A stretch of 64,000 nt of DNA from Cladocopium goreaui. Taxonomy: Eukaryota > Sar > Dinophyceae > Suessiales > Symbiodiniaceae. The position numbers and the translations under genes were made by a program. The stretch spans positions 1-64,000 of the forward strand of contig CAMXCT020001801.1 of NCBI GenBank assembly GCA_947184155.2. Reading direction: 5' to 3'. A model generated the notes under the pieces. It made no database searches. It saw only the letters and a program-made list of their open reading frames with translations, and was not told the DNA's origin. Shown piece by piece: positions 3,510 through 50,103 of this stretch; the stretch's first letter is position 1; each line of letters begins with the position of its first letter.

Positions 3510-5462
3510 CTTCGTTCGGTGCGAAGGCAACATATCACTGTTGGTTCTGATGCAGAACATCTATGCGGTAATCATAGATATCCATTTCTGAGTGGTAAAA
3601 CACCAAAAAAGATGCACAACAGGTCATAAAATTGTTACCGCTCAAGGAATCCGATTGGAGTTTGCTTTTCTGCATCATGGTGATTTCATGTGTTTTCATA
3701 ATAAATTGATATCATGAGACACCAAAGGAGGATGTGATCAAAAAGTAATTCTATCATACTAGCATTACAACAGGAGGATTTTGTCCCACACCCCAGTATA
3801 TATTATATCTATGCACCCCGTTTACGATAGCTAAGTTGTCTTTTTTGACTTGGTTAAGGGTTGGGTTTATTGGGAATACAACTATAGTTAAAACGAACTT
3901 ATAACTGACGGGCCTGGTAATAGGGTACCCCAAAATCCGCGAGTGTTATGTCTTAATGTCTGTCAAAATTGCTATTTAGGGGAATCAGTAGGGCGTATAC
4001 ACAATTTTTAGGCACTCCCACAGCATAAAAACAGCATTTGCGAATGTTTTTGGGGCAGGTCCTCGGCATGCTGGCATTGCCAATCTTGGATAACCTGCTT
4101 TTTTTTTGCTAGCTAGTAGAAAAATCCCCGTTTACAGCAAGAGATAAACCAGGAATAGTATGTATCTAACGAAGATTTGAGTCACTAGTCTTTGAGGTAT
4201 GGTTTCAGAGTCGCATGTATTCTTCCCACATTTTCCTTGCATTGACTGATTTTACATCCCTTTCACTGACATTTATCAATTGTTTGAATCCTAGGAAACA
4301 TAGGCTTCCCCGTCTCGAGACATGTACCTGGCTCAGGTTTTTGAGGGTCTTGTAAATTCTTAATCGCTTGCCTGATTTCCCCATGCCTCATAAAATTCAT
4401 GGGTTGTTATATTTTCGCTAGGTTCCAAGTATCACGTCCTTGCCGTTTACAGACTATCCCAATCAGTCCCTATCGATCTGTGTTGATTTGAAGTTGCATC
4501 TTGTTGATAAGAAATATTTCTAAGTCCCATGTGTCATTTGGCTCTCTCCTTCCGGCTGCAAAAAGCCATTGGTTGATTATTTGATTGATGGTTTGGGTTG
4601 GTGGGGTGTAGTCCCAACAACACCATAGGTTTCCATGGGTATCCCCCAAGATTCCAAAGCAATCTCTATCGGCTTTAGTTTTAATGAGCAAATGGGACGA
4701 TTCACCTCCAACAAAAAACAAACGAAGCAAACAACAAGAAACCATCTCATATAACAACAAAAAAACATTATAATTCAAGAATTATTCAAATTCCCTATCA
4801 AAAGTCACATTTTTGGTCGGTCCCTGTCCCCTGAAAAACGCGTCACCTCTACTTAGACTCGTGCTTTGGCTCTGATCGGCCCATAGTGAGGCACCTGCAT
4901 TGGAATCATCGGAAATCAGCTCCATATATAAGTGGAAGGTTGTCCATGTCCATGTTTGGTTACTGGAGGCTATGGGAGAATAGTGAGATAGTTATGGGCC
5001 AATAGGATAGTGAGATAATTCTAAGAAGTCGCAAACTGGCATGGCCAATCTTTGATATCACCATCAAAATAACCAAATATCAAAGTATTGGAGTACCCAC
5101 CCAAGGCTTCCCGTATAATTGGTTTTCATAATTCCAACCATTCTTGTTTGCACCCTCACTAATATATATATATATAATTATATATATATCTGTGTATGTG
5201 TATGTGTATGTACATATATATAACTAATTATATACATAATGGCTAACAGCAAATTGAACCATACAAAGCAGCCACCCATTTATGTTTGTTGCTGCGTACA
5301 TAATGTACATATGGCCACCACAAATCCAACAGTTGTTGCAGTTGTTACAGTAATCCGACTGACTCATCTTGGTGATACCACATTGCATAGGAAATTGCTA
5401 GGTCCCATATGTTCATGTTCCACATGATAAAATTGATCTCTCACCCAATTACATGTAAACCA
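3510..5462. other. Non-coding AT-rich stretch with TA/TG microsatellite
   Basis: No supported exon. A TA-rich and TATG-rich microsatellite lies at about 5160-5235. The remainder is unique AT-rich sequence. Confidence 0.45.
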
Positions 5463-5606
5463 TACAGGATGGTGCCCCCCAGTGATGTTTGTTGGTTTAT
5501 AAATCCCATGAATACTATAGTTCTATCTGCCATAAACCATAGGTTTTATGGGAGTTATGTGAACCCCAACTTAGCGATTTGCCTCACTGGGGCACCACCT
5601 AACGTA
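5463..5606. mobile_element. MITE-like foldback element, family III
   Basis: Begins TACAGGATGGTGCCCCCCAG and ends ...CTGGGGCACCACCTAACGTA, so the termini are inverted repeats. Internally it carries ATAAACCATAGG-type inner repeats. Related copies lie at 9594-9720, 35560-35657, 38514-38635 and (right part) near 27040-27104. Confidence 0.7.
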
Positions 5607-5657
5607 CCCAACTCGCCTCCTCAGCTCCATCTTGACCTGGAGTTTCCCCTTAACCAT

Positions 5658-5769
5658 CTGGTTGGTGGTTGACCTACCCCTCTGAAAAATATGAAAGTCA
5701 ATGGAAATGATTATCCGATTATCCCATATATGAAATGGAAAATAAAAAATGTTTGAAACCACCAACCAG
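5658..5769. mobile_element. MITE-like foldback element, family II
   Basis: Starts CTGGTTGGTGGTTGACCTAC and ends GAAACCACCAACCAG. Copies at 10952-11048, 27262-27370, 29226-29310 (truncated), 35254-35358 and 42440-42473 (right end only) share the ends and the inner CCCCTCTGAAAAATATGA motif. Confidence 0.75.
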
Positions 5770-5934
5770 CCATAGTTGTTGAAAAACTCTCTTTTAACGT
5801 CCTTGGATCATTTCGATGATCCCAAACCAGGGCGGAGAACCTCCGCGATTCGGGAGTTCTCCAAAAACACCTCTGGTAATCTTTTTTGTAGCCAGCCGAT
5901 TTCTAGATGACTTAAGGAACAAGAGCAAAATTGC

Positions 5935-6001
5935 CATTTATAGTTGATTTACCCAGTGAAAATGGTGATTTTTCATAGCATATGTTAAATTACCAGAGGG
6001 C
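5935..6001. mobile_element. Family I foldback element, right half only
   Basis: Carries the right arm (TTTTTCATAGCATATGTTAAATTACCAGAGGG) of the family I element but lacks the matching left terminus. A truncated copy. Confidence 0.6.
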
Positions 6002-6626
6002 GTCCGCTGTGCACAACTGCATTTCTTGACCATTTTGGTGGGAGATGCGTTCAGGTAGATATTTCTTGTATGGACAAACATCACTAACAAATCACAGATC
6101 ATATCCGTACTCCCCACCAAACCTTTCGGACCCGCTTAATCATGTATTTGGCAATACAAGTATTCAAAATCAAGGTTTTTGGCCACCTTCCGGTAAACTA
6201 ACATATGGACAACAAAAACAATTGTTTCCCAAGGAAAATGATCTACAAACGGTGGATTTTCCATATCTACACCTTAGCTTAGTGGAGGGTATAGCCATCT
6301 TTGTCTTGTCAAACCTTGTTGGTTTACATTCATCCTTTCCAGAATTACCCGTAACAATTAGCCGCAAGCAAAACAAGTCCAGCTGGCCCCTAGCAACGAA
6401 CGAGCTGTGCCGCTATCCGAACTTGCAGCGGCAAGAGTCAGCACAATCAACAGAACAATTTTCCACATATGGGGATGGGTCAAACCCTGGTACCTAGTGA
6501 ACCCCAAAATAGCTGGTAAATGGATGTTCATCCCACTAAAATGTATCTATAGGTATTGACCCATACCCATATGGCTTTTGGTAAACGTCTCTCAAATTGA
6601 GGTTGAACGCTAACGTCTGAGTGTTG

Positions 6627-6678
6627 ACTAAGCAGTGCATCGAAGCTGCGTCATCCAGACTTGGGGGCCAGCTCTTCT
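6627..6678 (-). CDS. Possible exon downstream of the last CCCH finger
   Basis: After the acceptor CGCCAG the minus strand reads KSWPPSLDDAASMHC with two leading bases, the phase needed to follow a CCCH exon that leaves one base. It carries Asp-Asp like the DDR microexons but lacks the AG|G ending, so it may be the terminal or a degenerate exon. The low coordinate is uncertain. Confidence 0.4.
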
Positions 6679-6969
6679 CTGGCGAAGAGTTAAGGGAGAA
6701 TCAGTGGGAATCAATCAAGTGCAGCTGCTGCAGCTGAAGATCATTTTGCAAAGCCTTGTCCAAGTTCATTTCAAATGCACACAGTTGTGCACGGATTCTG
6801 TTTTTAGTCTTGATCCCAAATTCTCTACCTGCGACTCGAAGCTGCAAGACATGGCTGAGCCCTGGCTGATTTCATCGGAGACGGCTCGCAGCCATCCAGT
6901 TCTTCTTTCAAAATTTATTGATGAACCAAGCCCCACAACAGACATCTCTCTAAGCTGAGCATCCCTTAC

Positions 6970-7034
6970 TATGGGAGAAGCGGCAATGGTCTCCATAGGT
7001 GCATTTGCTCTCCAGGAAATGCCGGCAAATCGGC
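6970..7034 (-). CDS. CCCH finger exon 1 (most 3')
   Basis: 65 nt, phase 1/1. Acceptor ...GTAGCCAG|G, donor ATA|GTAAGG (canonical). Reads CRHFLESKC-TYGDHC-RFSH with all four zinc ligands. Follows the DDR exon at 8126-8219. Confidence 0.75.
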
Positions 7035-10000
7035 CTGGCTACTGGATTCTGTGGTAACATGAAAACGAATCTCCTTGAAACACACCATCGGTTTTTGACC
7101 AACAAACTTGGGGATATAAGCGCAGTGACAAATGATCAGCAACAAACTTCTTATGATTGAATGGGTTTTTTACCGACTGGGGTGCCATATGAGCCAGGAC
7201 CGGTTACCCTTTACGATATGTGGATAAGGCAAAATTTGAGGGATTTGGGACATACAACCTGGTAGGCGTCCGAATGCTCCTTTCTGAATATCAACATGGT
7301 GGCTGGGTGGAGATACGCGCTTGATATTCAAGGAAAAGTGGCAGGTTGGGATATTCTTGAACTCGGATGAACTCGGCACATGCTGTACATGCTGTTCCCC
7401 CGGAACATATTCTATTCATCTCTATTCCCCCACCGGCCAGCCGGTTATCAGGGAGCATCATATCATCCAGGCGCAGTGAGTGTTTCAGTCCCTGAGAAGC
7501 TGGACAACACCAACACCAACACACCAAACACACACACAAAGCAAAACGCAATGTGCTTCATTCATAAACAGGGATATGTTCATTGACAATTCCAGTTTCG
7601 GAATCAATTTTCTACAGTCATGTGGCTCTTGCTGAAAACAGGCTACCTAGAATTCCGTGGTTTCAAACCTCATGTTCCCCAATCCACTAACCATAGATTA
7701 AGGGCAAAACTACCGAATCTGGTTGGTTTACCAACACTTTTGTATACTTTCGTTGGTTAAATCCCAACCATATCTGGACACACCAAAATTTGGAACCTCT
7801 TTCCATTCAATGGTTGACAATTTTGTTGTTGTTTCCGCATTATAGAAGGCCGTATTATTGAAGGCCCTCACACTTAGTAAGTCGTTAGGAATCATAGTGT
7901 TTGACCCGTTTATACATTGGGATTCTCCCGTGAATGTTGGACTTATGATATTATCACGATTATTGACCACTTACAGTATATCCCTCTGATTTTGTTTCTT
8001 AATTCCAATATAATGCTTGTGAAATAACCACGAGCAAAACAGTTTCAGTTGATCAAATCCAGATTTTGCTTGGACAAAATACATTGCTGCTGGCTTAAAC
8101 ACCATCGTCTTTGTTGATGAAGCGCCTATCATCCATCGGCTGCGGCCGCATGGGCGCAGGCGCAGCACGGTGTTGTGCGGCAAAGGCCGCAGGCAACGCA
8201 GGCGCCGCACAACTCTCACCTAAAGGGGATTCATGAATAATTTATGAATCATATATATATATAACGCATCGATATAGTACATAGATATAATTCATGAGTT
8301 TAAAAATCCAACCTTTCATTTTGAATATGATAGAAGTTGATAGATATCATCGAGATCTATCTCACTGTTATTTCCAAATGTATATAGATATATATGTGTA
8401 TATATATATATATGTAAATATGTATATATATATATATGTATCTATGTATATATATATGTATATATATATGTATATATAACGATACAAAATGATGTACAGT
8501 AAATCAAACATGTGATCTCAGTATTCCACCGACCTTCAAAGTTGTGCTGAATATGAATGATAGAAGTTGATAGATACAATGGATAAACTATATATACGTA
8601 TACGTATTATATCATTGTTATTTGAAAATATATATACGTATATATAACATGATATAAATCACATATTATACTAGTATTCAACCAACCTTCCATTTGTGAT
8701 TTTGAATATGAATGATAGATACAATGGTGATTCATATCACCGTTTTATGAATATATATATATATCATACAGTATTTATAATTTCATTAAAAACGCCCTCT
8801 AATATGAATGATATATATAATCTATACAAACAATGATTTTTGATATGTTTATACGTAGGGATATCACTGGATTTCTTGATGATATCAATTTTTACATTAC
8901 CAATTAAACATGTGGTTTGCTTTGTTACGATAATGACTTCGTGTTTAAGCCCATATTATCCAGGTAAATCTTCTACTCAGGTATCGTCATCGACATTGCC
9001 AGGTCTGATTGCACCAAAGGGCAATCCGTGCGGGGGTTTAAAGATCAAATCTAAAAGTATCACAATGATATAACATAAATATGTTCAAGGTGTGAATAAT
9101 TCAAGATCATTTTTTCGGCAATGATTAAGATTGCCCTAATTTTTCCTCTTCACATCATGATGTGCTATATCATGAACAAACATGAACAAACACTAATCGT
9201 TAACGATTAATGATTATTTTCATGTATTCTTCACGAATCAAGGCAACGGGACCACGCTTCAAGCCTAAACGAAAAAAAACAATGCAATACTCACAAGGAA
9301 CATCAAGGAACCGGGTTATCCTAAAAACATATCTTAACATGATATGGCCACCTTAGATTCTGATTTCATAGCATGCCATTGCATGCCAAATCATGCATGT
9401 TTTTGAAAACGCCACAGAATAGGAAAAGAACACGGGCCTGCAATGATTGGCTAGCTTAGTGGTTAGATCGCACAACATCCAACACATAGTTGCCAACAAT
9501 TGCCATGTTGAATCGCTGGATAGAATGAAAAAAAATCCATACCCGGATCCCAATGGCTAGATTCTAGACATCCAACAACATCCTACAACATCCTACAGGA
9601 TGGTGCCCCCCAGTTATAAGTTGGTTTATAAACCCCATTAACTATAGTTATATCTGCCATAAACCATAGTTATGGGAGTTATGTTCACCAACTTAGCTAA
9701 CTATGGGGCACCACCTTGTAGAATTGCCAACAAAAAAGCTGTTTTTTTGTTTCGCAACGAAGCTTTCACCATGACCGCTAGGGGGTGGCACCTGGGTGAA
9801 TCAGCAAGCGTATCACAAAAAAGCGAGCTACGCGAAAAATGACTCTATGACACACATGGGGAAGTATGTGGACATGCTTTGCTTATCATACCAGTATATA
9901 TATATGTATATATATGTATATATATGTATATATAATATCGAATAATGTGAATCATCTTTATATACATAATATTTATATACATCATATTTAAATATGTTAT

Positions 10001-13000
10001 GTGAATATGTGAATATCTTAAAATATGTTGTACTCCAATATTCATCGCTCGAAACTTCATTCTTCCACCGAAAAACAAACGGCCTCCATGTCGGAAGCGA
10101 CACATGTCACCGTAGGTGCAACGGCCCTCCAGGAAGTGGCGACATTGCGGCCTGGTCGCAATGACAATCTGCATGATCGTAGACAGCATCGAACCATGCA
10201 CATCATCGAAACATTGGGGAATTATGCATATCATAGCTGATTTTTGAACTTGAACATGCTGGGCAATCTGGGAACATGTCTGAACATATGTTTATATCCT
10301 TTTATGGGGCTTTGTCCAGAAATGTGTAGCCACTTACAATTTATGTGGCCGTTCGAAACCACAGGATTTTGGAGCACAACCTGTCTCGGCCCACCTGTCA
10401 TCCAGATTTGAAGGTGCGCCTGCACCACAACGGCCAAAAACTCATACCCTTTGCTAGTCAAACGTGGCAATGGGAATCCCCGCAAATGGAGATTTTAATT
10501 GGAAAAAACATATTTATTGGACAAGCATCTATAAATTGGAACATCATCTGCTTCACCATGTTTCAACACATCCCCTAAACATTCATTGATGATCAACCCA
10601 TTACCCTCTGGTGACTTAAGAGTTGCTCTGGAAGCTACTGTATTTATAGATTATTTTGCCAATTCAAAATGACAATTTTCCATGGTTTTGGAAGCCATCA
10701 GCCAGCCACACCTTTAAATTTCGGGACAGATGCATGTTACTTTCAACCATTTTCCATGTAGTCTGAAAAATCCTTTCCCAACAAAATCACAGAAACCCCG
10801 CTTTTTTGGTGCCCCAAAATGAATGAATCCTTTACTGCTCATCAGGTTTAGCGGGGCGCTGGGCATTCCGGTCGTGCCGCCCCTGCCTTGTGGGACAGTC
10901 TGATGCCGGCAAGGAAAGGACCTGCACATGGCGATGCACCTAACATGTCTACTGGTTGGTGGTATACCTACCCCTCTGAAAAATATGAAAGTTAGTTGGG
11001 ATGATTATTCCCAATATATGGAAAAACAAGTTTCCAAACCACCAACCACTCGAATATGTCTAATCTTCATGCTGGGCCAATGACCCGCCAATGACCTTGC
11101 CGGAAGACACGTATCAAAACCCTCGCCACCTGGATACTTGTGCAAGTCATGAACCTAGCTGGTTATGGGTCACAACGATCACAATATGGTCAGTACAAAA
11201 TGGTGAACATACCCTCTGGTAATTTAACATAGCTATAGAAAATCACCATTTTTAATAGGTAAACCATCTATAAGTGGGCCATTTTCCATAGCCATGTTAG
11301 TTTGCCAGAGGGTAACTCCCCTAACAGCAACGGGTTTATGCTAGCTATGCTGTGTCGAAGTAGTTCATGAAGCCGGCCTGTCATCCACAGTCATGGGGCC
11401 TGCAAGTAATGAAGATTCTTGACCTTCGTGGCGCACGCAGAAACGAACACCAACAAGAGATACAAGGAAAAGTCTGAGAAAAGTAGAAAAATAGAAAAAA
11501 TATGAACAAGTAATCCAAACAAATCCAATATACTTGGACTATGACCAACAGGTGATTGTTCTAAGTTACGCTTGCTGCATCAAAACACGACAACAAACCA
11601 GTAGCGCCATGGCACCATGGCTGAAGCGGCACTGATCGCCGTAGTTGCACTTCCCCTCCAGGAAATGCCGGCAAATGGACCTGCAACGAAAGGCTGAAAT
11701 CAAATCTTCATTGGATTCAAGCGTCTACAGTGCTGTACCTGCATTACCCACACAAGTCCCATGTCCTATGTGCTGACAACAGGTATGTGATGGTGGGCGA
11801 ACTTTGCTCTTTCTTGAACGTGGTTACGATATTGAACATGCGCGAGTAGATATCACAGTAATCACCACCATATCGGCAGTGAATGTCTGTTTCTGTAGAG
11901 TGTTTATACATCATCTGGAACATGTTTGGCACCGATGTCCACAACTGGTTGGACTGTGCTTTTGCTTGCCTGTCATCTCCTCTCATCGTGGAGTCTGCAG
12001 GGGAACACAAACAAAGCATCAGCAGTGTAGGGTGCAGCACTCGCAGTTGTTGGAAACTGAACACGTCAACTAGAAAGCGACGGAAAACAGTGATTGCTTT
12101 ACGAATTGAGGGAGCTGGTTGCATAGTTCCTCTGTCTTGCATCGGAACAAACAACAAGTCACCACTGCACTTTCCATCACTTTCCAGTCCTTCGGTAGAA
12201 ACATGCAAACTGGTGATAAAACATTTTGGAACGGTACAACACTCCTGCTTTCAACATTGAAACAATGTGCTCCCCCTGCCTTGTGAGACAGCCTGGACGG
12301 GGACGGGGGCCAGCAATTCATGCACTTCATGGCTGAAGCGGCACAGATCGCCGTAGTTGCATTTACCCTCCAGGAAATGCCGGCAAATGGACCTGCACAT
12401 CGAACAAAAAGGCTCTCAAAGCTTCATTAGGTGAACAGTCACTTGACGTCCTCATGGTTTGGCACAGAAACGTTGTAACTGAAAGATAGTCATGGCATGT
12501 CATGGTAGTCATGGTCGAGAAGATATAGAGATCGAAACAACAAGAGTTGCAACATGATACAATTGTATATTGTACATTATTGTACACAGTATAATTATTA
12601 TAATAAATGTTTTGTTTATATGTTTGATCGCCTCTTATTTGTCTGTCTATCTATGCTTGCTAAAAAAAACAAAAACATGGTGGACGGGATATGGTCATCC
12701 CATCATTCTGATTGTCGGACATCCCTGGTACATAAAACCTTATTGATCAGGATGTGACCATCCCCAATGTGGGCATATCCAACTGTTGAGCACGGCAAAT
12801 CTAGTGCCCATACATCTGAAACATGTTTGGCAACGGTGTCCACAACTGGTTGCACTGTGCTTTTGCTTGCCTGCCATCTCCTCTCATCGTGGAGTCTGCA
12901 GGGGAACACACACAAAGCATCAGGAGTGGAGGGTGCAGCACTCTGATTTGAGGGAGCTGGTTGCATAGTTCCTCTGTTGTCAGAACACACCAAAACGAAT

Positions 13001-14331
13001 ATAACAAATCGACACTTTGCAGTGCAAACAGACACGCTTCTGATAAGACATGATAGAACCATACGCAACTCCTTGATTCAAGTGGACCGCGAACGCGCTC
13101 AATTCAGAAGCTGGATGCAGCTATGATCTCCACTATCCATGCTTCCAACATTGAAACACTGTGCTCCCCCTGCCTTGTGAGACAGCCTGGACGGGGACGG
13201 GGGCCGGCAATTCATGCACTTCATGGCTGAAGCGGCACAGATCGCCGCAGTTGCATTTGCCCGCCAGGAAATGCCGGCAAATGGACCTGCACATCGAACA
13301 AAAATGCTCTCAAAGCTTCTTTAGGTGAACAGTCACATGACGTCCTCATGGTTTGGCACAGAAACGTCGTAACTGAAACATAGTCATGGCATGTCATGGT
13401 AGTCATGGTCGTGAAGATATAGAGATCGAAACAAAAAGAGTTGCAACATGATACAATTGTATATTGTACATTAATGTACACAGTATAATTATTATAATAA
13501 ATGTTTTGTTTATATGTTTGATCGCCTCTTATTTGTCTATCTATGCTTGCTATAAAAAAAAAAAACATGGTGGACGGGATATGGTCATCCCATCATTCTG
13601 ATTGTCGGACATCCCTGGTACATAAAACCTTATTGATCAGGATGTGACCATCCCCAATGTGGGCATATCCAACTGTTGAGCACGGCAAATCTAGTGCCCA
13701 TACATCTGAAACATGTTTGGCAACGATGTCCACAACTGGTTGCACTGTGCTTTTGCTTGCCTGTCATCTCCTCTCATCGTGGAGTCTGCAGGGGAACACA
13801 AACAAAGCATCAGGGGTGGAGGGTGCAGCACTCTGATTTGAGGGAGCTGGTTGCATAGTTCCTCTGTCATCAGAACACACCAAAACAAATATAACAAATC
13901 GACACTTTGCAGTGCAAACAGACACGCTTCTGATAAGACATGATAGAACCATACGCAACTCCTTGATTCAAGTGGACCGCGAACGCGCTCAATTCAGAAG
14001 CTGGATGCAGCTATGATCTCCACTATCCATGCTTCCAACATTGAAACACTGTGCTCCCCCTGCCTTGTGAGACAGCCTGGACGGGGACGGGGGCCAGCAA
14101 TTCATGCACTTCATGGCCGAAGCGACACAGATCGCCGTAGTTGCATTTGCCCTCCAGGAAATGCCGGCAAATGGACCTGCACATGGCGACAAAAACCTGT
14201 GGCACACCAGAAAGCCCAGAAAACTATCACCGGCAAGTCTTGTCGCAACTTTTTTTAAACATTTTTTTATATATTTTTTAAATGTGTATATGCAGAATGT
14301 CACAGGATGCTCAAGGTGGTGTGTGTGCGTG

Positions 14332-14362
<31 letters not shown>

Positions 14363-17300
14363 TTCTTCACAAACTGAGACAGCCTTTTGCGATTCAGGAA
14401 AGGCGCACAAAACTAGCAACCCCTGTAAAGATAGAAATGATAGACAAGTCATTCAACATTAGTTAATACTATTTTGGTAGGATCTCTGGGTTACCATTTC
14501 CATTTGAGAAACCTTAGGGCCTCAAGCCTAAGATCGCCAAAAGGCATGGGTCATTTGGCTCATCAAGTCACTTGTTTCAACAACGATGGAAAATGACAAT
14601 CTACATTCTAACCCCCCAGAATACACGGCTAATCGTAGACAGCCTGGCAATTTCGAGATCAATTTCAGCTGGACACTATCTTTTTGCAAACATATCACAT
14701 AGACGGTATATCAGGGTACATTGACACTTTCCGTCTTTAGCAGTGTAGCAAAAATATGTAAAACACTTGCCTCCCAAAAATGCTTCCAAAGCTAGAGGGC
14801 TAGCCAAGAAAGGCCTATGAGTTTCCCCCACACCAAACCGATTGAAATCATTCGAAATCTACCACCAGTTGACGATTTCCACACGCCTGTCATCTTCATG
14901 CTTGGAACCTGCAGAGGCAGAGGGTTCCATGATTCGAACTTCAGGCCCGAACAGTCCCTAACACTTTGCCCCCATATGTGGGTTGTGAAATGTTGTGAAT
15001 ATATCATTACAAATTATTATACCATATTACAACTGAGGTTTACACATCCGAAACATTCCGAAACTCAGTTAGGATAATCCCATGTCATTTTTCCCAAGTT
15101 TTTCCCTGGCCATGTTGACCCCCCCATTTTCCAGTTGCCTTGCCTGGTGGAGCGGTCAAAGCAGTCACTTCATGGCTGAAGCGACAGAGGTCGCCAAAGG
15201 TACACTTCTTTTCCAGGAAGTGGCGGCAAATCGACCTATCGGGCGCCTTGAAGGTTCTGGTTCTGGATGATGGTAAGCACATTTGAGCAAGTGGATTTTA
15301 TCCAACATTCTACTCATACATTATGATTGGGTTGTGCCAATGCTACCTTTAAAACATTAACTTGAACTTCAGGCATGATACCAGCAAGGTGTCGAAGTGC
15401 AACACATACATCATGCCCGGCCACAGGAAAATTCCAAGCAACTTCGATCTGCAAATCCCCAGTGATTCCTCAAATCCTCAGGTCTCTGGCCTGTCCATTG
15501 ATGTTGGCTCAAACATGGCCCAAACATGGGTGTGTAATCTTTAATACCCTGCAAACAAGTTTTTTTTTTCAGGCTGGGTATGAACTATTGCACATTTATA
15601 TACATTTATAGCGTAGAGCAACAAACATAACCGGCCGTTCACCATCCGGTTTACCCAGAAATGCTTCTTGAGCATCATTTTCTCCGATTACAACATGCCA
15701 TTGAGGGGGTGCCCTCTGGTAATTTTGAAACTTGGCTGGAGATTACATCATTTATAGATGATTTCCGTTGATTTTCCCAGCGAACGAAACCTCCATTTGT
15801 ATCCATTTGTAGGGGATTTCCCAGCCACGGCCGCACCTGTCATCTGCTGTGCCTGTCGGCAACGGCGCCGCATGCGGTGCATGCTTGCCTCGAAAATATG
15901 GCCACGGCTGGTGGTTGAGCCCCTCAGCCACCGATATCAAGCTTGCCCTCTGGTAATTTAACATAGCTATGCAGACTTGACCCATTTATAGATGATTTAA
16001 CTGTCTAGATATCTTAAATATTCTTCAATTACGGGAGGTATGATGCACACTTCGTGGTTCATCCCTCTTAGTAAGTAGGGTTCCGGCACAATGACGACGT
16101 ACGATTTTTGTTATGACATGATCCATTTGCAACTGACATAAAACGGGGAAATCACATGAAATTAAGTAGCTACCGTCTAGTAATTTTTGCATAGCAATGG
16201 AATGAACATGGCCCATTCATAGATGAGCCTATAAAAAATGGGATTTTCCATAGCAACGTGTTAAATTACCAGAAGGTAACCAAGCGCTGATTGGTGGTTG
16301 GCTCGGCATTCGGCATCGCCGGGATCTAGATCCAACGACGGAGGCTGGAATTTCTGACGGTGTTTCTTCCAAAAATCCATAGATTCCACAGCCTTTTCTG
16401 CGCAAGAATTTCCATCATTTGAAGATTACCAGCTGATTTTAAGTGACTTTGGCCACTCAAAGCGGATTTTCGCCTGACGGGGGGAACAAGTTGGGTTTCT
16501 CTAAGACTGCAGCATAATTACCACCAAAGCCAATGGTTTCCAATCTCAAGCAAACCTTGCTTGGATCCATTCGGATTTTTCGATGTTTTTCGTCGTTGTC
16601 AATTCCTTGATATTCCTTGCGCCATTTGGTGATTTAACTGCACTCCGACCTGACACAGACTGCGAAATTCTGATGTTTAAGCACCAGCTGATTGGTGTGG
16701 CCTGTCCCTAAAATCATCCCAAGGATGCCCAAAAAAACTTGGCATTCTGCCTGCTATCATCTACTTTCATGATTTCGAGGTGGACCACTCAAACCATGTT
16801 AAACTGCATTTTCTCACTGGAATCCTCAGAAAATGACCACCAGAATCAGGCGGAACTCCAGGTGGAAACACCCCGTTGTTTCCCCGATGCCGTAGGATCT
16901 CCTTGGTGGCTGAAACCACAGCCGTCGCCGTAGGTGCACTTGCCCTGCAGAAAATGTCGACAGACCGGCCTGCAAGCTGTGAGATGGGATGGGATGGGAT
17001 CATAGTTTTTTTCGGCCATGCATTCCATCAGCCTGTTTTGGGGTACGTAAAACCCATCAGGCAAAAAAAAAGGGCGTGTCAAATGATATCGTTTTATGGC
17101 TTTTTACATGTGGCTACAAAATAGGTTATATGTAGATTTCAGTTTCAAAGTGATTTATACCCCGTATAAGATTTATACCCCGTATAAAACCTATCTACGT
17201 ACATGTGTATATTATATATATAATGATAGCTGGGTATATTGCACACACATATATTATATATATATATGTAATAATACACACACACATAACTCGGTATAAT

Positions 17301-19199
17301 TCGCTTACTACCAACGTACGAAGAGGGATGCACTCCCAAGTAATATTCAATGATCTCTCAAAGCATGGTATGATTGTTGTTGCTTAATTTCCATGGGGGC
17401 ATTGTGTGGTTTGGATATCAAACTACATGTACCATGAAAGTCAAACACGTACCAGTCTTTACAAAAGCAGGAAATAAGATAAAATGCTAGTGTTGGGATG
17501 CAGTTCTAAAGACCCCAGCTATATATTATATCAACTATTGGGTTATATCCAAATGGCTCACATAACGATTGAATCCGTGAGGCCTCTTTTAGTAGCTATG
17601 GACCTCTCTGCGTTGGATGAAGTATCAGCAGATAGGCTACCCCCAAATCCCATGGCTTTTCACATCGCTATTTTTCGAGGTATACCCAATTTCTGGATAA
17701 ATCATGCTCGACCCATATCCAAAATTTGGGGACTCCCAACATACACAACTTCATTAGGATCATCAACCATTACCAGGCCTTGATCTACTAACTGTACAGA
17801 CTCCGAATGCGAGGATCATCCCAGAACTCAGAACGGAGCTTTCCGAAGTCATGGGGGCACCCCAAATTCATCCAGTTGTCATGGATGATCATGACTTAGT
17901 ATTGAAACCATGGTGACGACTGGGGATCCCCCCATGCCTTTTGGGACCCCACGCCTGTCATCGGTGAAATGCTTGAAGTTGCACGTATCACCTAAGCTGA
18001 GGCACAAGAAACGGTGCTACCAGGCTGTTGTTTCAGATGTGCTATGGCTGCCAAGGTCAACTCAAATATTTTTATGGTCATCCCACCATCAGGATTCGAT
18101 TTACTATAATATGATTTGATGAGTTATTGATCCCTGTTATGAACATGGATTGATGACCATCCTCTCAATATGGGTGTATAATCCAAGTCTCAACTGTGGC
18201 ACAAATGATGATGGGTATCTATTGGGAGCATAGCCCATTTTCAGACACACATACATATATATATATCCTGGTGTGGTTTGGTGTGTTGATTCTAACTACC
18301 AATCATTCAGCTAACTCAGGAAACAGCACGAAGCGTGGTTGCACATGGCCCACTTCTCAACACGATGAGATAATGAGTCCAGGGTCCTGCGAATTCTCTG
18401 CGAACTCCAAGCAACAGTCACCAGTCATCCCGAGGATTTGGTGAGGGCCTACTGTAATCACTGTGATATCACGGTTGACTGGCAATTAGCCCCTTGTTTC
18501 ACAGGGAGAAATCCTGCCACGTTGGATTCCCATAGCTCCTGAATGCTGCCAACATCTCCCAACCTCAGGCATCATCTCACCTATCTCTAAGGTTCTGGCC
18601 GTAGCTACACTTTCCCTCCAAGAAGTGGCGACATACATCAGCTGCGGCCAGCATAGTGGCGCCTGAGCATGATGTCGTGATCCCAAACACCTTGGGTTTC
18701 AATACTAAAATTATCTAAAATGATTTTAAGATGGTCTAATTTGGGATGATTTGGGTACCCCATTTCAGGAAACCTCCATTTTATGCCCAAACAGGATTGA
18801 ATCGTCTAATATTGATAATATCATGTCAACCAGGCGAATAAAGAAAGGGAATGAAGCAAAAAGAGAGATACGGTACAGCAGAGATACTATGTTAATTGCT
18901 GCGTTCATACGTACGGACACCCCAGGGGATATGGGTGAAAACAAGTATATTATCATATATTATCAATTATCACCAGCACCAGATATTCAAGCAGGGTTCC
19001 TAGACACAACAAACAAACGCATGGTTAACAAAAAAAGCAAATGGTGGCGACCTCAAGTTGAAGTCACTTTGAAAATTACGAGTTGAACCTGCCAACCATC
19101 CGATGGTTCCAAATTTTGCCTCTACCTTGGGAGGTCATCATTCAAGACCTGCTTGTGTCAGAGCGAGCAATCTCTGGCGCCTGTCATCTGGAGATACCA
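6970..19199 (-). CDS. Multi-exon gene: alternating DDR microexons and CCCH zinc-finger exons
   Basis: Overall extent of the modular gene on the minus strand. Each module is a microexon ending GAT GAC AG (Asp-Asp-Arg across the splice) followed by an exon with one CX7CX5CX3H finger. DDR exons are 2 + 3n + 2 nt and finger exons 1 + 3n + 1 nt, so joining all modules keeps one frame reading ...DDR-S/P-x-C-R-H-F.... CCCH fingers of this kind usually bind RNA, so an RNA-binding regulatory protein is inferred; nothing else shows its target. Donors are GT, GC or GA and acceptors AG|G, as known for dinoflagellates. Eight fingers have all ligands. True start and stop are unknown; candidate outer exons are at 20221-20280, 6627-6678 and 3462-3509. 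Confidence 0.75.
7035..8125. other. Intron-like stretch
   Basis: Lies between the DDR exon at 8126 and the finger exon at 6970. AT-rich, with no further exon supported. Confidence 0.4.
8126..8219 (-). CDS. DDR exon, long Ala/Pro-rich form
   Basis: 94 nt (2+90+2). Acceptor CCTTTAG|GTGAG, ends GATGATAG|GCGC (GC donor). Reads an Ala/Pro/Gln-rich segment ending APAPMRPQPMDDR. It is GC-rich against AT-rich introns. The longest of the DDR exons; phase matches the finger exon at 6970-7034. Confidence 0.65.
8247..8830. repeat. TA/TATG-rich microsatellite region
   Basis: Repeated TATATATA, TATATATGTA and GATATATATG blocks, plus a duplicated motif AATGATAGAAGTTGATAGATA (8326 and 8558 areas). Non-coding. 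Confidence 0.7.
8831..9593. other. AT-rich stretch without a gene
   Basis: No exon with splice context was seen. A tRNA A-box-like string at 9450 was examined and rejected. Confidence 0.4.
9594..9720. mobile_element. MITE-like foldback element, family III (best copy)
   Basis: TACAGGATGGTGCCCCCCAG at the left pairs with CTATGGGGCACCACCTTGTA at the right, with inner arms (AGTTGGTTTATAAACC / ATAAACCATAGTTATGGG). About 127 bp, no ORF. Confidence 0.75.
10084..10151 (-). CDS. CCCH finger exon 2
   Basis: 68 nt, phase 1/1. Acceptor GCGACCAG|G, GC donor GGAG|GCCG. Reads CRHFLEGRC-TYGDMC-RFRH, all ligands present. Preceded in the transcript by the DDR exon at 10395-10419. Confidence 0.75.
10395..10419 (-). 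CDS. DDR microexon (25 nt)
   Basis: Acceptor TGCAG|GCGCA, donor GATGACAG|GTGGG. Reads (G)APSNLDD(R) in phase 2/2. The split Arg codon is completed by the G opening the finger exon at 10151. Confidence 0.7.
10601..10685. mobile_element. Family I foldback element, diverged/partial
   Basis: Begins CCCTCTGGTGACTTAAG and has the inner TTATAGATTATTTTGCC and TTTTCCATGG parts. The right terminus is not recognisable. Confidence 0.5.
10887..10921 (-). pseudogene. CCCH exon with the finger core deleted in frame
   Basis: 35 nt in phase 1/1, with the same acceptor (TGCAG|GTCC) and GC donor (CACAAG|GCAGGGG) as the 113-nt finger exons at 12280, 13174 and 14064. It keeps PCRH at the start and TVPQ at the end but lacks 78 nt (26 codons) covering the other zinc ligands. 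It can still be spliced in frame, so this looks like loss of one finger without loss of the reading frame. Confidence 0.6.
10952..11048. mobile_element. Family II foldback element
   Basis: CTGGTTGGTGGTATACCTAC ... TTTCCAAACCACCAACCA, with the CCCCTCTGAAAAATATGAAAG core. Confidence 0.75.
11210..11314. mobile_element. Family I foldback element (introner-like), complete
   Basis: TA | CCCTCTGGTAATTTAACATAG ... GCCATGTTAGTTTGCCAGAGGG | TA. Terminal inverted repeats of about 30 bp, an inner TTTTTAATAGG / CCATCTATAAGTGG section, and TA on both sides suggesting a TA target duplication. CTG|GTAA and GCCAG|A at the ends look like splice sites on either strand. Confidence 0.75.
11378..11399 (-). CDS. 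DDR microexon (22 nt)
   Basis: Acceptor TTGCAG|GCCCC, GC donor GATGACAG|GCCGG. Reads (G)PMTVDD(R), phase 2/2. Precedes the finger-deleted exon at 10887-10921. Confidence 0.65.
11616..11680 (-). CDS. CCCH finger exon 3
   Basis: 65 nt. Acceptor TTGCAG|GTCC, canonical GT donor CATG|GTGCC. Reads CRHFLEGKC-NYGDQC-RFSH, complete ligand set. Confidence 0.75.
11970..11994 (-). CDS. DDR microexon (25 nt)
   Basis: Acceptor CTGCAG|ACTCC, GC donor GATGACAG|GCAAG. Reads (D)STMRGDD(R). Flanking intron sequence resembles that of the microexons at 12871 and 13761, so all three derive from module duplication. Confidence 0.7.
12280..12392 (-). CDS. CCCH finger exon 4
   Basis: 113 nt (1+111+1). Acceptor GTGCAG|GTCC, GC donor CACAAG|GCAGGG. 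Reads CRHFLEGKC-NYGDLC-RFSH, then a tail EVHELLAPVPVQAVSQ. All ligands intact. Confidence 0.75.
12871..12895 (-). CDS. DDR microexon with Asp to Gly change
   Basis: Same 25-nt exon as at 13761 but GATGGCAG replaces GATGACAG, so the motif reads Asp-Gly-Arg. Splice sites and phase are retained. Confidence 0.65.
13174..13286 (-). CDS. CCCH finger exon 5 (variant)
   Basis: 113 nt with the same splice sites as exon 4. Reads CRHFLAGKC-NCGDLC-RFSH: Glu to Ala, and Tyr to Cys before Gly-Asp. The extra Cys lies inside the finger. All four canonical ligands remain. Confidence 0.72.
13761..13785 (-). CDS. DDR microexon (25 nt)
   Basis: Acceptor CTGCAG|ACTCC, GC donor GATGACAG|GCAAG. Reads (D)STMRGDD(R), phase 2/2. 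Confidence 0.7.
14064..14176 (-). CDS. CCCH finger exon 6
   Basis: 113 nt. Acceptor GTGCAG|GTCC, GC donor CACAAG|GCAGGG. Reads CRHFLEGKC-NYGDLC-RFGH with the same tail as exon 4. Complete ligands. Confidence 0.75.
14331..14364. repeat. (CT)n microsatellite
   Basis: CT repeats with one interruption, in an intron. Confidence 0.9.
14365..14886. other. Intron-like stretch
   Basis: Between the DDR exon at 14887 and the finger exon at 14064. No further exon supported. Confidence 0.4.
14887..14908 (-). CDS. DDR microexon (22 nt)
   Basis: Acceptor CTGCAG|GTTCC, GC donor GATGACAG|GCGTG. Reads (G)SKHEDD(R), phase 2/2. Confidence 0.65.
15144..15235 (-). CDS. CCCH finger exon 7
   Basis: 92 nt (1+90+1). 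Acceptor CCGATAG|GTCG, GC donor CACCAG|GCAAGG. Reads CRHFLEKKC-TFGDLC-RFSH, then EVTALTAPP. All ligands present. Confidence 0.75.
15711..15830. mobile_element. Family I foldback fragment
   Basis: Starts GCCCTCTGGTAATTTTG and has the inner TTTATAGATGATTT. A second left-end copy (GCCCTCTGGTAATTTAACATAG) lies at 15944-16010. Right termini are missing in both. Confidence 0.5.
15837..15852 (-). CDS. DDR microexon, only 16 nt
   Basis: Acceptor GCCGACAG|GCACA, canonical GT donor GATGACAG|GTGCGG. 2+12+2 nt reads (G)TADD(R). A longer alternative would use an upstream AG and include the GC-rich HAAPLPTG segment. Phase agrees with finger exon 7. Confidence 0.5.
16171..16278. mobile_element. Family I foldback element, diverged
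   Basis: TA|CCGTCTAGTAATTTTTGCATAG ... AACGTGTTAAATTACCAGAAGG|TA. The left end has lost CTGGT (now CTAGT). Inner sections match family I. Confidence 0.65.
16902..16969 (-). CDS. CCCH finger exon 8
   Basis: 68 nt. Acceptor CTTGCAG|GCCGG, GA-type donor CACCAAG|GAGATC. Reads CRHFLQGKC-TYGDGC-GFSH, complete ligand set (Arg to Gly before Phe). Confidence 0.72.
16970..17954. other. Intron-like stretch with TA/CA microsatellite
   Basis: TA-rich and ACACACA tracts at about 17196-17290 and a duplicated TTTATACCCCGTATAA (17155-17190). No exon supported. Confidence 0.4.
17955..17991 (-). CDS. Hybrid exon: remnant of a finger fused to DDR
   Basis: 37 nt (2+33+2). Acceptor GCTTAG|GTGAT, GC donor GATGACAG|GCGTG. 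Reads (G)DTCNFKHFTDD(R). GDTCNFKH matches the second half of a finger (GDxCxFxH), and the upstream DNA also aligns (HRFLC) but has a stop where the first Cys should be. A decayed finger apparently now serves as a DDR exon. Confidence 0.5.
18581..18641 (-). pseudogene. Degenerate CCCH exon
   Basis: Reads CRHFLEGKC-SYGQN-LRDR. The first two Cys are kept; the third Cys and the His are gone. The phase at the possible acceptor does not fit the module. The GT donor AGATAG|GTGAG is good. Probably decayed. Confidence 0.5.
19181..19199 (-). CDS. DDR microexon (19 nt), most 5' found
   Basis: Acceptor GAAGCAG|TGG, GC donor GATGACAG|GCGCC. Reads (V)VSPDD(R), phase 2/2. Confidence 0.55.
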
Positions 19200-20220
19200 C
19201 TGCTTCGCTTGCTGTCAGGAACATGTGGCAGTTTCTCCGAATGCTAATAATCAAGGGATCTTTCGAGGGCTGGATGGTTTTGGTTGGTTTTGGCAGGCTT
19301 CTAATGGCAAAATACTATTTATTGAGATGTAGAGGCTTTGATATCTCTGGCTAGAATTGAACACTTTTACATGTTGAATGATTCTGCGACAGGGGGCAAA
19401 CCTTCAGCAGCTGAATCTATTCCGTGGTAAACTCAATGATAAACCAACCGGTGACTTGAGCAACTCGAGCCAGGACGTCACATGCGTAATGGTGGTGATT
19501 CGCGATGGTGAGACTTCTCATTGGCTTAGCCAACACATAGAGAGTATTTTTTTCAATTATTTCTATTTCCTAATCAGGTGGTCCATGGTGCTTGAGTTCA
19601 GGGATCCATAGGGGTCCCAGTTTATAGAAAGCGTAACACATAGCTTCATGATCATCATTGAACAGAACTATGATCGCTAGCTGCCTCCGATAATCTAGCC
19701 TGGCTGTGAAGATTCCGATGTATAGGTGACTTTCAATCAAACATGGGCATTTCCCAATGGGACAATCACCCTACCAACTTTTTCCGTTTCTCAATAAATT
19801 GGATTGTCAGAGAACGATCGAACATATCTATATAAACATATCTAAACATTGGAAACCATGGAGAAAATAATGGAAAATTCTATCGATCGATCGAACCCAA
19901 GGGCATCTCTGAGTACATCAACATCCTTCGCCATGTGCGAAGGGAAGGGCATCCCAGCATGGTGACTCGATGATTCGTGAAGTGGGAAAAGTCTCCACTG
20001 TATTGACCATTGAAACCCTTGAACATACTATATTATACCACACTGTTATATCATATATATATTAAGACACTTCCCTCCTCAGATATCAAACATCATCAAA
20101 CCCTTCTTCCAAAATTTGAGACAGCGATCAAACACAAACAAGTTTGGTCACTTTTAGTGTAACACTCGAATTTTGCGGGGCTATTAATCTCTTGGAACCA
20201 GAAACACATCTGCCTTTGAC
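19200..20220. other. Stretch without supported exon
   Basis: AT-rich unique sequence, possibly the 5' intron of the CCCH gene. Nothing else supported. Confidence 0.35.
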
Positions 20221-21509: not shown

Positions 21510-23870
21510 GCGCTATATTCCCCAAAGGCCACGCTGAGGGGTTCTTACGGTAAGTGTTAAGGCCCGGTGTTTAGTCGAGGTGGTATCATCCGTGTCCGGC
21601 CAAGTCCCTGTAAATCTCCAAGCAAAATGGTTCTTGTGAAATGTCCATGTGCATTTCGACTGCAAAAACTCGCACAAAACGATGTCCATGGTCGTCGCGT
21701 ACGGCATTTTCCGTGTAAATTTTGATGCCAAATGGCTCTTGTGAAATGTCCATGTGCATTTCGAGTGCGCAGGCTCGCACGAAACGGTGGCCGCGGGATT
21801 CGCATCCGGCATTTTCCTTGTAAATTTCCAAATAAAATGGCTCTTGTGACATATTCATATGATTTCGACTGCGCCGGCTCGCGCAAAACGAGAAATCTCG
21901 CACAGACATCTTGCCAAGAGATCTCTTATAGGGAGTCTGTACAAAGATCTTGCCAACAGAGCTCTTTTTGAAATCTTGTGCAGAGATCTTGCCAGAAGAC
22001 CTCTTATAGAGATCTTGTACAGAGACCTGGTGCAGAGAGCAGCGATCTTGCTCAGAGACCTTCTCTAGAGAGCTTGAACAGAGATCTTACTTTGAGATCC
22101 CCCACAGAGATCTTCTATGGAGATCTCTTATAGAGAGAATTCTTCAAGAGTCTTTCCAAGAGACTTTTTATAGAGATCTTGTACAGAGATCTTGCCAGGA
22201 CACCTCTTACGCAGACCTTGTACAGAGACACTGCATAGAGATCTGTTGCAGAGATCTTGCCAAGAGGTCTCTTACATAATTCTTGCTAAGAGAACTCTTC
22301 TAGAGAGCTTGTACAGAGGTTTCATAAAGAGATCGTGTACGGAGACATTGCATAGAGATCTGTTGCAGAGATCTTGCCAAGAGACCTCTTATAGAGATCT
22401 TGTACAGGGATCTTGCCAGGACACCTCTTATGGAGACCTCGTGCAGAGACATTCCATAGAGATCTGTTGCAGAGATCTTGCCAAGAGGTCTCTTACATAA
22501 ATCTTGCCAAGAGAACTCTTCTAGAGAGCTTGTACAGAGGTTTCATAAAGAGATCTTGTACGGAGACATTGCATAGAGATCTGTTGCAGGGATCTTGCCA
22601 GGACACCTCTTATGGAGACCTTGTACTGAGACATTCCATAGAGATCTGTTGCAGAGATCTTGCCAAGAGGTCTCTTACATAAATCTTGCCAAGAGAACTC
22701 TTCTAGAGAGCTTGTACAGAGGTTTCATAAAGAGATCTTGTACGGAGACATTGCATAGAGATCTGTTGCAGAGATCTTGCCAAGAGACATCTTATAAAGA
22801 TCTTGTACAGGGATCTTGCCAGGACACCTCTTATGGAGAGCTTGTACTGAGACATTGCATAGAGATCTGTTGCAGAGATCTTGCCAAGAGGTCTCTTACA
22901 TAAATCTTGCCAAGAGAGATTTTACAGAGAACTTGCACAGGGATCTCACAAAGAGATCTTGCCAAGGATCTCTTATAGAGATCTTGTCCAGGAGGTCTTG
23001 CCAAGACACCTCTTCTAGATATCTGTACAGAGATCTTGCCAAGAGGTCTCTTAGCGAGATCTTGCCAACAGAGCTCTCATAGAGATCTTGTGCAGAGATC
23101 TTGCCAAGAGGTCTCTTTTAGAGATCTTGTCCAAAGCTCTTGCCAAGAGACCTCTTATGGAGATCTGTTGCAATTATCTTGCCAAGAGGCCCCTTACAGA
23201 GATCCTGACAAGAGACCTCTTATAGAGATCTTGTACGGAGATCTTGCCAGGATACCTCTCATGGAGACCTTGTACTGAGACATTGCATAGAGATCTGTTG
23301 CGGAGATCTTGCCAAGAGGTCTCTTACATAAATCCTACCAAGAGAGAGCCTTTATAGAGAGTTTGTGCAGGAATTTCAAAAAGAGATCTTGCCAAGAGAT
23401 CTCTTATAGAGATCTTGTCCAGGAGGTCGCCAAGAAACCTCTGGTAGAGATCTGTGCAGAGATCATGCCAAGAGGTCTCTTACAGAGATCTTGCCAACAG
23501 AGCTCTTATAGGGATCTTGTACAGGGGTTTTGCCAGGAGACCTCTTTTGGAGATCTCGTGCAGAGACCTGGTGAAGAGAGCAAAGGTCTTGCTCGGAGAT
23601 CATTTATAATTAGATAGTAGCTTAAACAGAGATCTTGCTTTGAGATCCCTTACAAAGATCTCCTGTGGAGATCTCCTATAGACACTTTGTACAGCCCTAC
23701 ACAGGGATCTTGCACAGCAGCTTCTACAGAGAACCTGTTAAGGAGATCTTGCGCACGATCTTCTACAGAGATCTTCGCAAAGGGAACTTGCAGAATCTTA
23801 CCTGGTATCTCTTCTTTTCACTACTAGGGTCGCTCTGGTCCTGCTAGCTTGCAGCCACTGATGCTTTTAG
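21510..23870 (+). repeat. Satellite-bearing repeat element, copy A
   Basis: Head at 21510-21900 (AAGGCCCGGTGTTTAGTCGAGG...), including three ~105-bp tandem units starting at 21609, 21714 and 21819. The body at about 21900-23750 consists of AGATCT-rich ~30-40-nt monomers (AGATCTTGCCAAGAGACCTC, AGATCTTGTACAGAGA). Longer-period blocks place GCCAGGACACCTCTTA at 22194, 22415, 22597 and 22818 (spacings 221, 182, 221). The tail is CTTTGAGATCCCTTACAAAG...GACACTTTGTACAGCC. All reading frames through it are open, but the peptides are repeat artefacts. Confidence 0.85.
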
Positions 23871-29678: not shown

Positions 29679-29793
29679 TACCATCTGGTTATTTAACATA
29701 GCCATGGAAAATCCCTGATAAATGGAGGTTTTAATGGGAAAATCATCTATAAATGGACCATTTTCCATGGCTATGTTAAATAACCAGAGGGTA
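29679..29793. mobile_element. Family I foldback element (introner-like), complete
   Basis: TA|CCATCTGGTTATTTAACATAGCC ... GGCTATGTTAAATAACCAGAGGG|TA. Includes an extra inner segment (CCTGATAAATGGAGG). Confidence 0.75.
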
Positions 29794-29886: not shown

Positions 29887-30022
29887 GTGTTTTGGTATTT
29901 GCGAGACGACGAACCCTAAAACCCTAAAACCCTAAAACACTGAAACCCTAAAACCCTGAAAACTCTGAATCCGAAAGCAGAAAACACTGCGGTCTACGCA
30001 GTATTTTCTGCAGTTTCTCTTC
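29887..30022 (-). repeat. Telomere-like dispersed repeat, inverted copy
   Basis: Reverse complement of the arrangement at 1-240: CCCTAAAACCCTAAAACC tract followed by AAAGCAGAAAACACTGCGG...CGCAGTATTTTCTGC. Confidence 0.65.
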
Positions 30023-37244: not shown

Positions 37245-38190
37245 TACCCAGTAACAAAGCGCTGTACAAGGTGTCTATAGGAGATCTCCACAGAAGATCT
37301 ATCTGTGTAAGGGATCTCAAAGCAAGATCTTTGTTCAAACTATGTAATAATGATCTCCGAGCAAGACCTTTGCTCTCTTCACCAGGTCTGCGTACAAGAT
37401 CTCCAAAAGAGGTCTCCTGGCAAGATCTCTGTACAAGATCTCTATAAGAGCTCTGTTGGCAAGACCTCCCGGACAAGATCTCTATAAGAGATCTCTTGGC
37501 AAGATCTCTTTATTAGATCTCTGTACAAGCTCGCTATAAAAGCTCTCTTGGCAAGATTCATGTAAGAGACCTCTTGGCAAGACCTCTGCATCAGATCTCT
37601 ATGCAATGTCTTTGTACCAAGGTCTCCATAAGAGGTGTCCTGGCAAGGTCTCTGTACAAGATCTCTGTATGAAACCTCTGTACAAGCTCTCTAGAAGAAT
37701 TCTCTTGGGAAGATTTATGTAAAAGACCTCTTGGCAAGATCTCTGCAACAGATCTCTATGCAATGCCTCTGTACAAGATCTCCATCAGAGGTATCCTGGA
37801 AAGATCTCTGTAGAAGATCGCTTTAAAAGATGTCTGAGCAGGATCGCTGCTCTCTTCACCAGGCCTCTGTACAAGATCTCTATCAGAGGTCCTCTGGCAA
37901 GATCTCGTGCAAGAACTCTATAAGAGCTCTGTTGGCAAGATCTCCCGGACAAGATCTCCAAAAATTCCAGAAGGGGTCTCTTGGCAAGATCTCTGTACAA
38001 GCTCCCTACAAGAAGTGTCTTGGCAAGATGTCTGTGCGAGATTTCTCGTTTTCTGCGAGCCTGCGCAGTCGAAAAGCTATTTTTAAAGGACAAATGCCAA
38101 ACGCTAAGGATACCACCTCGATTGAACACCGGGCCTTAACAGTTACCGTAAGAACCCTCAGTGTGGCCACACTCTTTGTTTGGGGAAAAA
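37245..38190 (-). repeat. Satellite-bearing repeat element, copy B (inverted)
   Basis: Reverse complement of copy A with both ends shared. The tail GCTGTACAAGGTGTCTATAGG...GGGATCTCAAAGCAAG is at the left. The head, with CACCGGGCCTTAACAG and GATACCACCTCG, is at the right (about 38060-38160). The monomer body is only about 0.75 kb against about 1.9 kb in copy A. Confidence 0.85.
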
Positions 38191-49474: not shown

Positions 49475-50103
49475 CTCGAGCCTTATATGGGGGTCTTCAC
49501 CAGAAATCATGGCAGAAAGGATGGTTTTAGTATGATTAATATGTTCATAAGTGAGATATAGCTGATATAACACAATCTAATATATGGGCAGGAACAGAAC
49601 ACGTTCAAGAGTATCAAATCAATATGTGAATATGTGTCATATACGACTGTACTTGTAGTAGAACAAGAATAAGGAATTTGCTAAAAAAAATGTATATTAC
49701 GAAATAACATGAAATAACACAATTTTTCGGAAGTGGATGGACCCTTTTCCAGATTCGTAATTGTTGGAAGCCGTGGGAAGGTAGCAACGGTAGCAACCAC
49801 AAACCCGGGGAAATGACCGGACCAACAATGGATGATTCCCACCACCCTGCTGGGAGGATCAGCGTTCCTGAGCTAGGCTCTGTAAAGCTTGGCGAGGCAC
49901 TTCTGAAACACTCAAGATTATCCATGAATCAAAGTCTGAAATGCTACCAGCAACAACCACCAACCACTAATGTCACTAATGATATCTAATGATAGATGGT
50001 TTTCATAAACCCTTATTTTCATGATGGTTGGTTGCCAATAAACCCTCAGTGAATGTTGATGGTTAATAAACCTCGATCAAAAAAACACATCAACTCGCCC
50101 AGC

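Follow-up and report, generated by a model that had tools for sequence, protein, structure and literature searches.

CPSF30/Yth1 carries five CCCH fingers that differ from one another and follow a fixed order, and tristetraprolin (TTP/TIS11) has two CX8CX5CX3H fingers with a YKTEL-like lead-in. For gene structure, the closest described case is tandem exon duplication with symmetrical phases, in which the duplicated unit lies between introns of equal phase and the reading frame is safe. Splicing in the Symbiodiniaceae has a character of its own: according to the accessible text of one source, GC donors in Symbiodinium minutum come close to GT donors in frequency, a G frequently follows the acceptor, and the mean is 19.6 exons per gene (PMC4083563), and that of another, on Cladocopium goreaui, gives donors of 43.6% GC, 36.6% GT and 19.8% GA, AGG acceptors at 96.1%, and a mean of 17.2 exons of 120 bp per gene (PMC9412976). 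The locus described here lies on the minus strand of the window, a 64,000-nt stretch of a C. goreaui contig (CAMXCT020001801.1, hereafter C1801). Judged from its sequence, it is very likely a single gene in the nuclear genome of a dinoflagellate, coding in 19 exons for a protein with nine CX7CX5CX3H fingers and DDR linkers.

The predicted protein consists of the nine fingers and short linkers ending in Asp-Asp-Arg, and almost nothing else. As a whole it scored 185 bits against Pfam PF00642 (cut-off 20.5) and 207.7 bits against PF18044 (cut-off 24.6); each of the nine CCCH stretches matched both families at an E-value limit of 1, which places the protein in the CCCH family. Its best match among solved structures was CPSF30 (6fuw_C, 2.7e-10), and four domains were aligned in the profile match to CPSF4. 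The best solved match to the finger profile fell on finger 2 of CPSF30/CPSF4 (9oxe_C, 5.2e-9), which shares the CX7CX5CX3H spacing. Whereas the fingers of CPSF30 are dissimilar, the nine fingers here are nearly identical and separated by DDR linkers; identity with CPSF30 was rejected, as finger number and order differ, and the likeness is one of finger type only. The match to TTP was weaker (1m9o, 7.4e-5). TTP likewise has CCCH fingers, which bind single-stranded AU-rich RNA, but nine CX7 fingers, led in mostly by DDR[SP]x and never by a YKTEL-like sequence, put the protein outside the TTP/TIS11 group.

For the gene model, the minus strand was read from 23.0 kb to position 1, CCCH-like patterns and GATGACAG-like 8-mers were located across the window, phased candidate splice sites were tabulated around every single-exon finger and DDR, and the exons were then joined using the window alone. 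The resulting 19-exon model runs from 18654 to 6950 (1095 nt, 365 aa, no internal stops), with 18 introns of 216-1864 nt and an exon GC3 of 0.64 against an intron GC of 0.41. Eleven columns are invariant across the nine fingers (C R H F L, C, G D, C, F, H). The lead-in is DDR[SP]x in seven fingers, DGRS in one, and AADV in finger 1, which has no preceding DDR; in finger 5 a Cys stands at the place of the Tyr found in most fingers.

All exons that follow are on the minus strand; finger exons are lettered fA to fH and DDR exons numbered m1 to m9. The first exon, E1 (18600-18654), holds the candidate start and the first half of finger 1 (MLAAADVCRHFLEGKCSYG; half-finger peptide VCRHFLEGKCSYG) and is identical in a second genomic copy of the gene. 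The second half of finger 1 and a DDR are encoded by m1 (17955-17991, 37 nt; DTCNFKHFTDDR; half-finger peptide GDTCNFKHFTDDR), and the two exons join in phase 1 at G|GT (YG|D), restoring the CX7CX5CX3H pattern. Finger 2 (PVCRHFLQGKCTYGDGCGFSH) is encoded by fA (16902-16969), for which a GA donor was picked, the GT donor at 16872 being another in-phase choice. There follow m2 (15837-15852, 16 nt, TADDR), fB with finger 3 (15144-15235), m3 (14887-14908, 22 nt, SKHEDDR), fC with finger 4 (14064-14176, 113 nt), m4 (13761-13785, 25 nt, STMRGDDR), fD with finger 5 (13174-13286), m5 (12871-12895, 25 nt, with the variant GATGGCAG, read as DGR), fE with finger 6 (12280-12392), m6 (11970-11994, 25 nt, STMRGDDR), fF with finger 7 (11616-11680), and m7 (11378-11399, 22 nt, PMTVDDR). 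Next is an exon without a finger, fX (10887-10921, 35 nt, SFPCRHQTVPQ), also identical in the second copy, and then m8 (10395-10419, 25 nt, APSNLDDR), fG with finger 8 (10084-10151), m9 (8126-8219, 94 nt), an Ala/Pro-rich linker ending in GATGATAG (MDDR), and the terminal exon fH (6950-7034, coding 7034-6953), with finger 9 followed by SKGCSA and a TAG stop. The first Cys codons of the eight single-exon fingers lie at 16962, 15228, 14169, 13279, 12385, 11673, 10144, and 7027. A 10-nt version of m4, with an AG|G acceptor, is in frame as well, and the equivalent versions of m5 and m6 are also in phase; the 25-nt form was preferred for all three because its acceptor, tccccTGCAG, is pyrimidine-rich.

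The original prediction, made from the letters of this region, had described nine microexons alternating with eight finger exons, and much of that description stands. The eight single-exon CX7CX5CX3H fingers are there, on the minus strand, with a 1+3n+1 length in seven, exon fH being terminal; the total, however, is nine, since finger 1 is split between 18654-18600 and 17991-17955. The nine short exons keep their predicted lengths and ends, save that 17991-17955 is half a finger plus DDR, and the alternation holds for most of the gene and is interrupted once, by fX between m7 and m8. At the 5' end, the ATG at 18654 is the predicted start, with an additional in-frame 5' exon as a candidate, and CAG|GCGCCACTATG at 18662, just upstream of this ATG, is a candidate spliced-leader site. 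The dinoflagellate spliced-leader sequence had 172 exact matches in the genome (81 + 91), against none for the control, which marks the genome as that of a dinoflagellate.

The modelled donors are GC in 14 introns, GT in three, and GA in one; acceptors were picked as AG, so that all 18 are AG by construction, and the AG is followed by G at 15 of 18, the exceptions being m4-m6. These are splice sites of the Symbiodiniaceae type (GC, GT, or GA donors, AG acceptors followed by G), although, set against the published averages available, the gene is richer in GC donors (14/18) and poorer in AGG acceptors (15/18). A gene of 19 exons is ordinary in this family, since the published exon averages accessible to us are of that order; exons of 16-25 nt and a strict two-exon module are, in our judgement, less ordinary.

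How much of the exon layout could arise by chance depends on which ends were chosen. The outer exon ends were picked for phase, and a suitable in-phase site is common, with a YAG acceptor at 31% and a G|GY donor at 33% of random positions, so that the 5' phases of the short exons and the 3' phases of the finger exons weigh less; the earlier argument from the chance agreement of 17 phases was overstated on this account. Other in-phase sites exist at several exons (three donors for fA, seven for fG), and conservation between the gene copies does not separate them. More than chance is nonetheless at work, as had been claimed. The nine DDR donors were not chosen for phase, and a GC (seven) or GT (two) directly follows DDR in all nine cases, against 11% of random positions. 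AG|G lies exactly 7 nt ahead of the first Cys codon in all eight single-exon fingers, an AGG being found at 1.4% of positions. Because fingers C-F and exons m4-m6 were copied recently, these counts come down to about five independent cases for the fingers and about seven for the DDR exons. On the minus strand of the region, GATGACAG occurs eight times (seven exon ends and one intronic site at 13864); in 300 Markov shuffles the mean was 0.22 and the highest count three. The motif ends seven of the nine DDR exons, the others ending in GATGGCAG (12871) and GATGATAG (8126), and all nine (37, 16, 22, 25, 25, 25, 22, 25, and 94 nt) are of length 2+3n+2.

All nine DDR junctions complete an AGG (Arg) codon and keep the frame, and the intron divides the DDR at the same place each time, as predicted; the other nine junctions complete Gly or Asp, so that the claim of an Arg codon at every junction is true of one half of them. 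The junctions 10395-10151, 13761-13286, and 14887-14176, singled out beforehand, are all present in the model. Two further occurrences of GATGACAG were rejected: that at 13864 as an exon end, since an AG follows and no in-phase acceptor precedes the upstream stop, and that at 19181, within the range of the original prediction, as a DDR exon, since with the phase of a DDR exon it runs into a stop once joined to the exon that follows. A permissive tblastn search of the window with three finger queries found no additional fingers, matches at E<1e-5 falling only on exons of the model.

The phases have a consequence for skipping. Loss of any single internal exon breaks the frame (0 of 17 skips keep it), with an early stop in 14 of 17 and none for m7, m8, and m9, whereas skipping of any adjacent internal pair leaves an in-frame, stop-free message (16 of 16). 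Isoforms might then be produced by skipping whole two-exon modules, one locus giving arrays of varying finger number, and in the accessible text of a study of the dinoflagellate A. gibbosum exon skipping is the main kind of alternative splicing (PMC11453091). The frame property, however, follows automatically from the alternating phases and does not speak for its use; we consider such isoforms possible but doubtful.

Growth of the array by whole modules, in comparison, was seen directly, as the original prediction had proposed. Unit C (13305-14195, minus strand, 890 bp) comprises fC, an intron, m4, and most of the next intron; unit D (12411-13304, minus strand, 893 bp) comprises fD and m5; and the two are 96.9% identical over 895 aligned bases, introns included. 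The copied unit begins about 19 nt ahead of the finger exon and stops before the next finger exon, and thus consists of a finger exon and a DDR exon with their introns, with phase-2 introns on both sides. Units C and D are adjacent, similar through their introns, and in frame, and so belong among tandem module duplications. Partial matches occur in units E and F, fE-m6 being a shorter, partly matching relative. As in tandem exon duplication with symmetrical phases, the duplicated unit lies between introns of equal phase and the frame is safe; unlike it, the unit is made of two exons of differing phase, one of them only 16-94 nt long.

The array would have grown because this two-exon unit has introns of equal phase on either side: phase 2 for a finger exon and the next DDR exon, phase 1 for a DDR exon and the next finger exon. 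Copying or losing a whole unit would preserve the reading frame, and losing a single exon would break it. Fingers C, D, E, and F are recent copies. Comparison of six divergent fingers (1, A, B, C, G, and H) gave pS 0.68 and pN 0.20 (15 non-independent pairs of 21 codons), as expected of old duplications in which the peptide was kept; the young pair C-D has no detectable constraint, its pN/pS being 0.90. One module has also been reduced: fX is a finger exon that has lost its finger through a net in-frame shortening of 78 nt, or 26 codons, having 35 nt where fC has 113, while its splice sites and phases are unchanged. Similarity to unit C persists in the 5' part of fX, and similarity to units C, D, and E at its 3' end.

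The fixed intron in the Arg codon of DDR would most simply have been passed on through the duplications and not inserted afresh each time. An opposing account has introners, recognised as families of similar introns with terminal repeats and duplicated target sites, inserting late, at AGG sites, into a once continuous finger array that was duplicated afterwards. All nine DDR introns do lie at an AG|G site, none of the other eight fingers has an intron corresponding to the one in finger 1 (YG|D), and dinoflagellates are reported, in the available text of PMC11453091, to gain introns in this way. Yet when all 18 introns of this gene were compared with one another, no whole-length intron family was found outside the C-F units, only internal matches to a dispersed element common to introns fA-m2, m2-fB, and m7-fX. 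No exact terminal inverted repeat longer than 7 nt was found in the terminal 40 nt of the 18 introns, a sign that old introners could have lost by decay. The same DDR position nine times over is simpler by inheritance, and late insertion is unlikely.

A dispersed element with GGTAATTTAACATAGC was seen at 5964-5994, 11218, 15952, 24692, 27902, 29687-29785, and 62883; at up to three mismatches it has nine sites in place of 0.68 expected, two of them in introns of the CCCH gene. Over about 105 bases, the copy in intron m7-fX can be aligned with its own reverse complement.

A stronger test of the exon layout than agreement in phase is the comparison of gene copies. Searching the genome (1,165,616,438 bases in 6202 contigs) revealed a second full copy on contig C3534, to which all 19 exons align without exonic indels and with two differences in 1095 bases, one Pro/Leu and one silent. 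In the introns, 152 of 10,431 bases differ and 33 gaps are present. Divergence is thus 0.18% in exons and 1.46% in introns; the intron rate predicts about 16 exonic differences, where two were observed. None of 1664 circular shifts of the exon layout had as few as two events (mean 32), and with the fastest intron masked seven of 1664 were as low (mean 18). The modelled donor and acceptor dinucleotides are kept in 18 of 18 introns of the second copy. The copies are young (about 1.5% intron divergence), their two exonic changes are uninformative on dN/dS, and identical stretches of 611, 471, and 394 bases between the copies also occur in upstream or intronic sequence. The 611 bases (18689-19299 of the window) lie upstream of the gene and include the GATGACAG at 19181; the ATGACAG at this site could form a 5' exon that joins E1 in frame, in phase 1. 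A partial third copy, 99.97% identical to the second, lies at the end of C3534: an 11.7-kb stretch with the 5' part of the second copy (5001-16718) is repeated 45 kb further on (50096-61813), either because the segment was duplicated in tandem or through an effect of the assembly. No intron-less retrocopy was found in a genome search with the 365-aa protein, high-identity matches being confined to separate exons on C1801 and C3534 (112 of 1382 candidates scored).

That the finger and DDR exons are relics of an older gene, a decaying duplicate whose protein is no longer made, is very improbable: one exon is without its finger (10921-10887), one DDR has become DGR, and segmental copies exist, including the nearly identical partial third copy, but all 19 exons are free of frameshifts, stops, and broken splice sites in both full copies, exons have diverged far less than introns, and the finger was lost in frame. 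Exon-specific conservation between the two copies, together with a pN/pS of 0.29 among the divergent fingers, supports a functional coding gene. With considerable confidence, then, we regard the CCCH locus as a real, functional-looking gene and an instructive variant of known principles, as far as sequence can tell.

Many-finger CCCH loci are not unique to this gene, since two other contigs of the genome also have them. Contig C4669 has 14 fingers spread over several short frames at 58.3-69.0 kb, some of them nearly unchanged repeats; it resembles the present gene in its many fingers and differs in its mostly (Y/F)KTxxC-like lead-ins, candidate AG|G acceptors mostly in phase 0, and mixed donors. 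Neither GATGACAG nor any of three variants was found in three of the finger-bearing loci there (L001-L003). At about 59.2-66.2 kb of this contig (L001-L003 and L040) is a gene or cluster in which the finger peptides of 64.35-64.87 kb recur almost without change at 65.76-66.14 kb. On contig C2143, at 47.3-48.0 kb (L004), seven CQFFxKSGWCKxGDxCxxxH fingers lie in a single open frame. A genome search with PF00642, in which 150 of 3392 candidates were scored, gave at least 150 matches, many of which lie within long open frames, and the 26-aa finger gave at least 26 (150 of 678 candidates scored): eight on C1801, ten on C3534, and eight elsewhere at 55-63% identity. Five of these last eight were viewed (L027, L028, L029, L031, and L034), of which L028 has no complete finger by pattern.

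Elsewhere in the window, arrays of a 13-bp unit (AGATCTTGCC-like and its complement) occupy 21895-23519 and 37394-37944, with periods of 26, 39, 65, 91, and 221 bp among others, and interstitial telomere-like TAGGGTT and AACCCTAA repeats occur at 116-207 and 29912-29969. A 2616-aa open frame (52811-60661, minus strand) lies in a GC-richer stretch at 50-60 kb and has no Pfam match at 0.001; a Pfam search of three ORFs at 50-61 kb returned no families, as did an Rfam scan of the window. An IMG/VR scan turned up three pattern stretches, none of them a relative.

The pre-mRNA would be spliced as modelled, and exons of 16-25 nt would then sit between introns with mostly GC donors. By analogy with other CCCH proteins, we infer that the product binds RNA through its array of like fingers; this small, almost all-finger protein is probably RNA-binding. 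The fingers would bind zinc as well as single-stranded RNA. Like other multi-CCCH proteins, the array would hold a repetitive or A/U-rich RNA by avidity, through many weak contacts that are nearly identical. A literature search on dinoflagellate CCCH genes and exon duplication, with subscription journals mostly outside its scope, had no title naming such a gene among those listed. The principle of module duplication is already known, and the gene described here is an unusually clean example of it: the locus records growth by whole modules, in which older and more recent steps are both preserved, together with one in-frame loss.

A more speculative reading, which we hold only tentatively, is that the locus encodes a frame-protected, length-variable RNA-reading array, whose modules would be gained, lost, or skipped only whole and whose finger number would differ between strains or isoforms. 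If true, CCCH proteins would have their own equivalent of the evolving PPR or C2H2 arrays, here in organisms mostly under post-transcriptional control. Dinoflagellates are held to regulate their genes mostly after transcription, according to a review whose accessible text gives little detail on CCCH proteins (PMC12787238), and in this group the locus offers a testable multi-CCCH protein.
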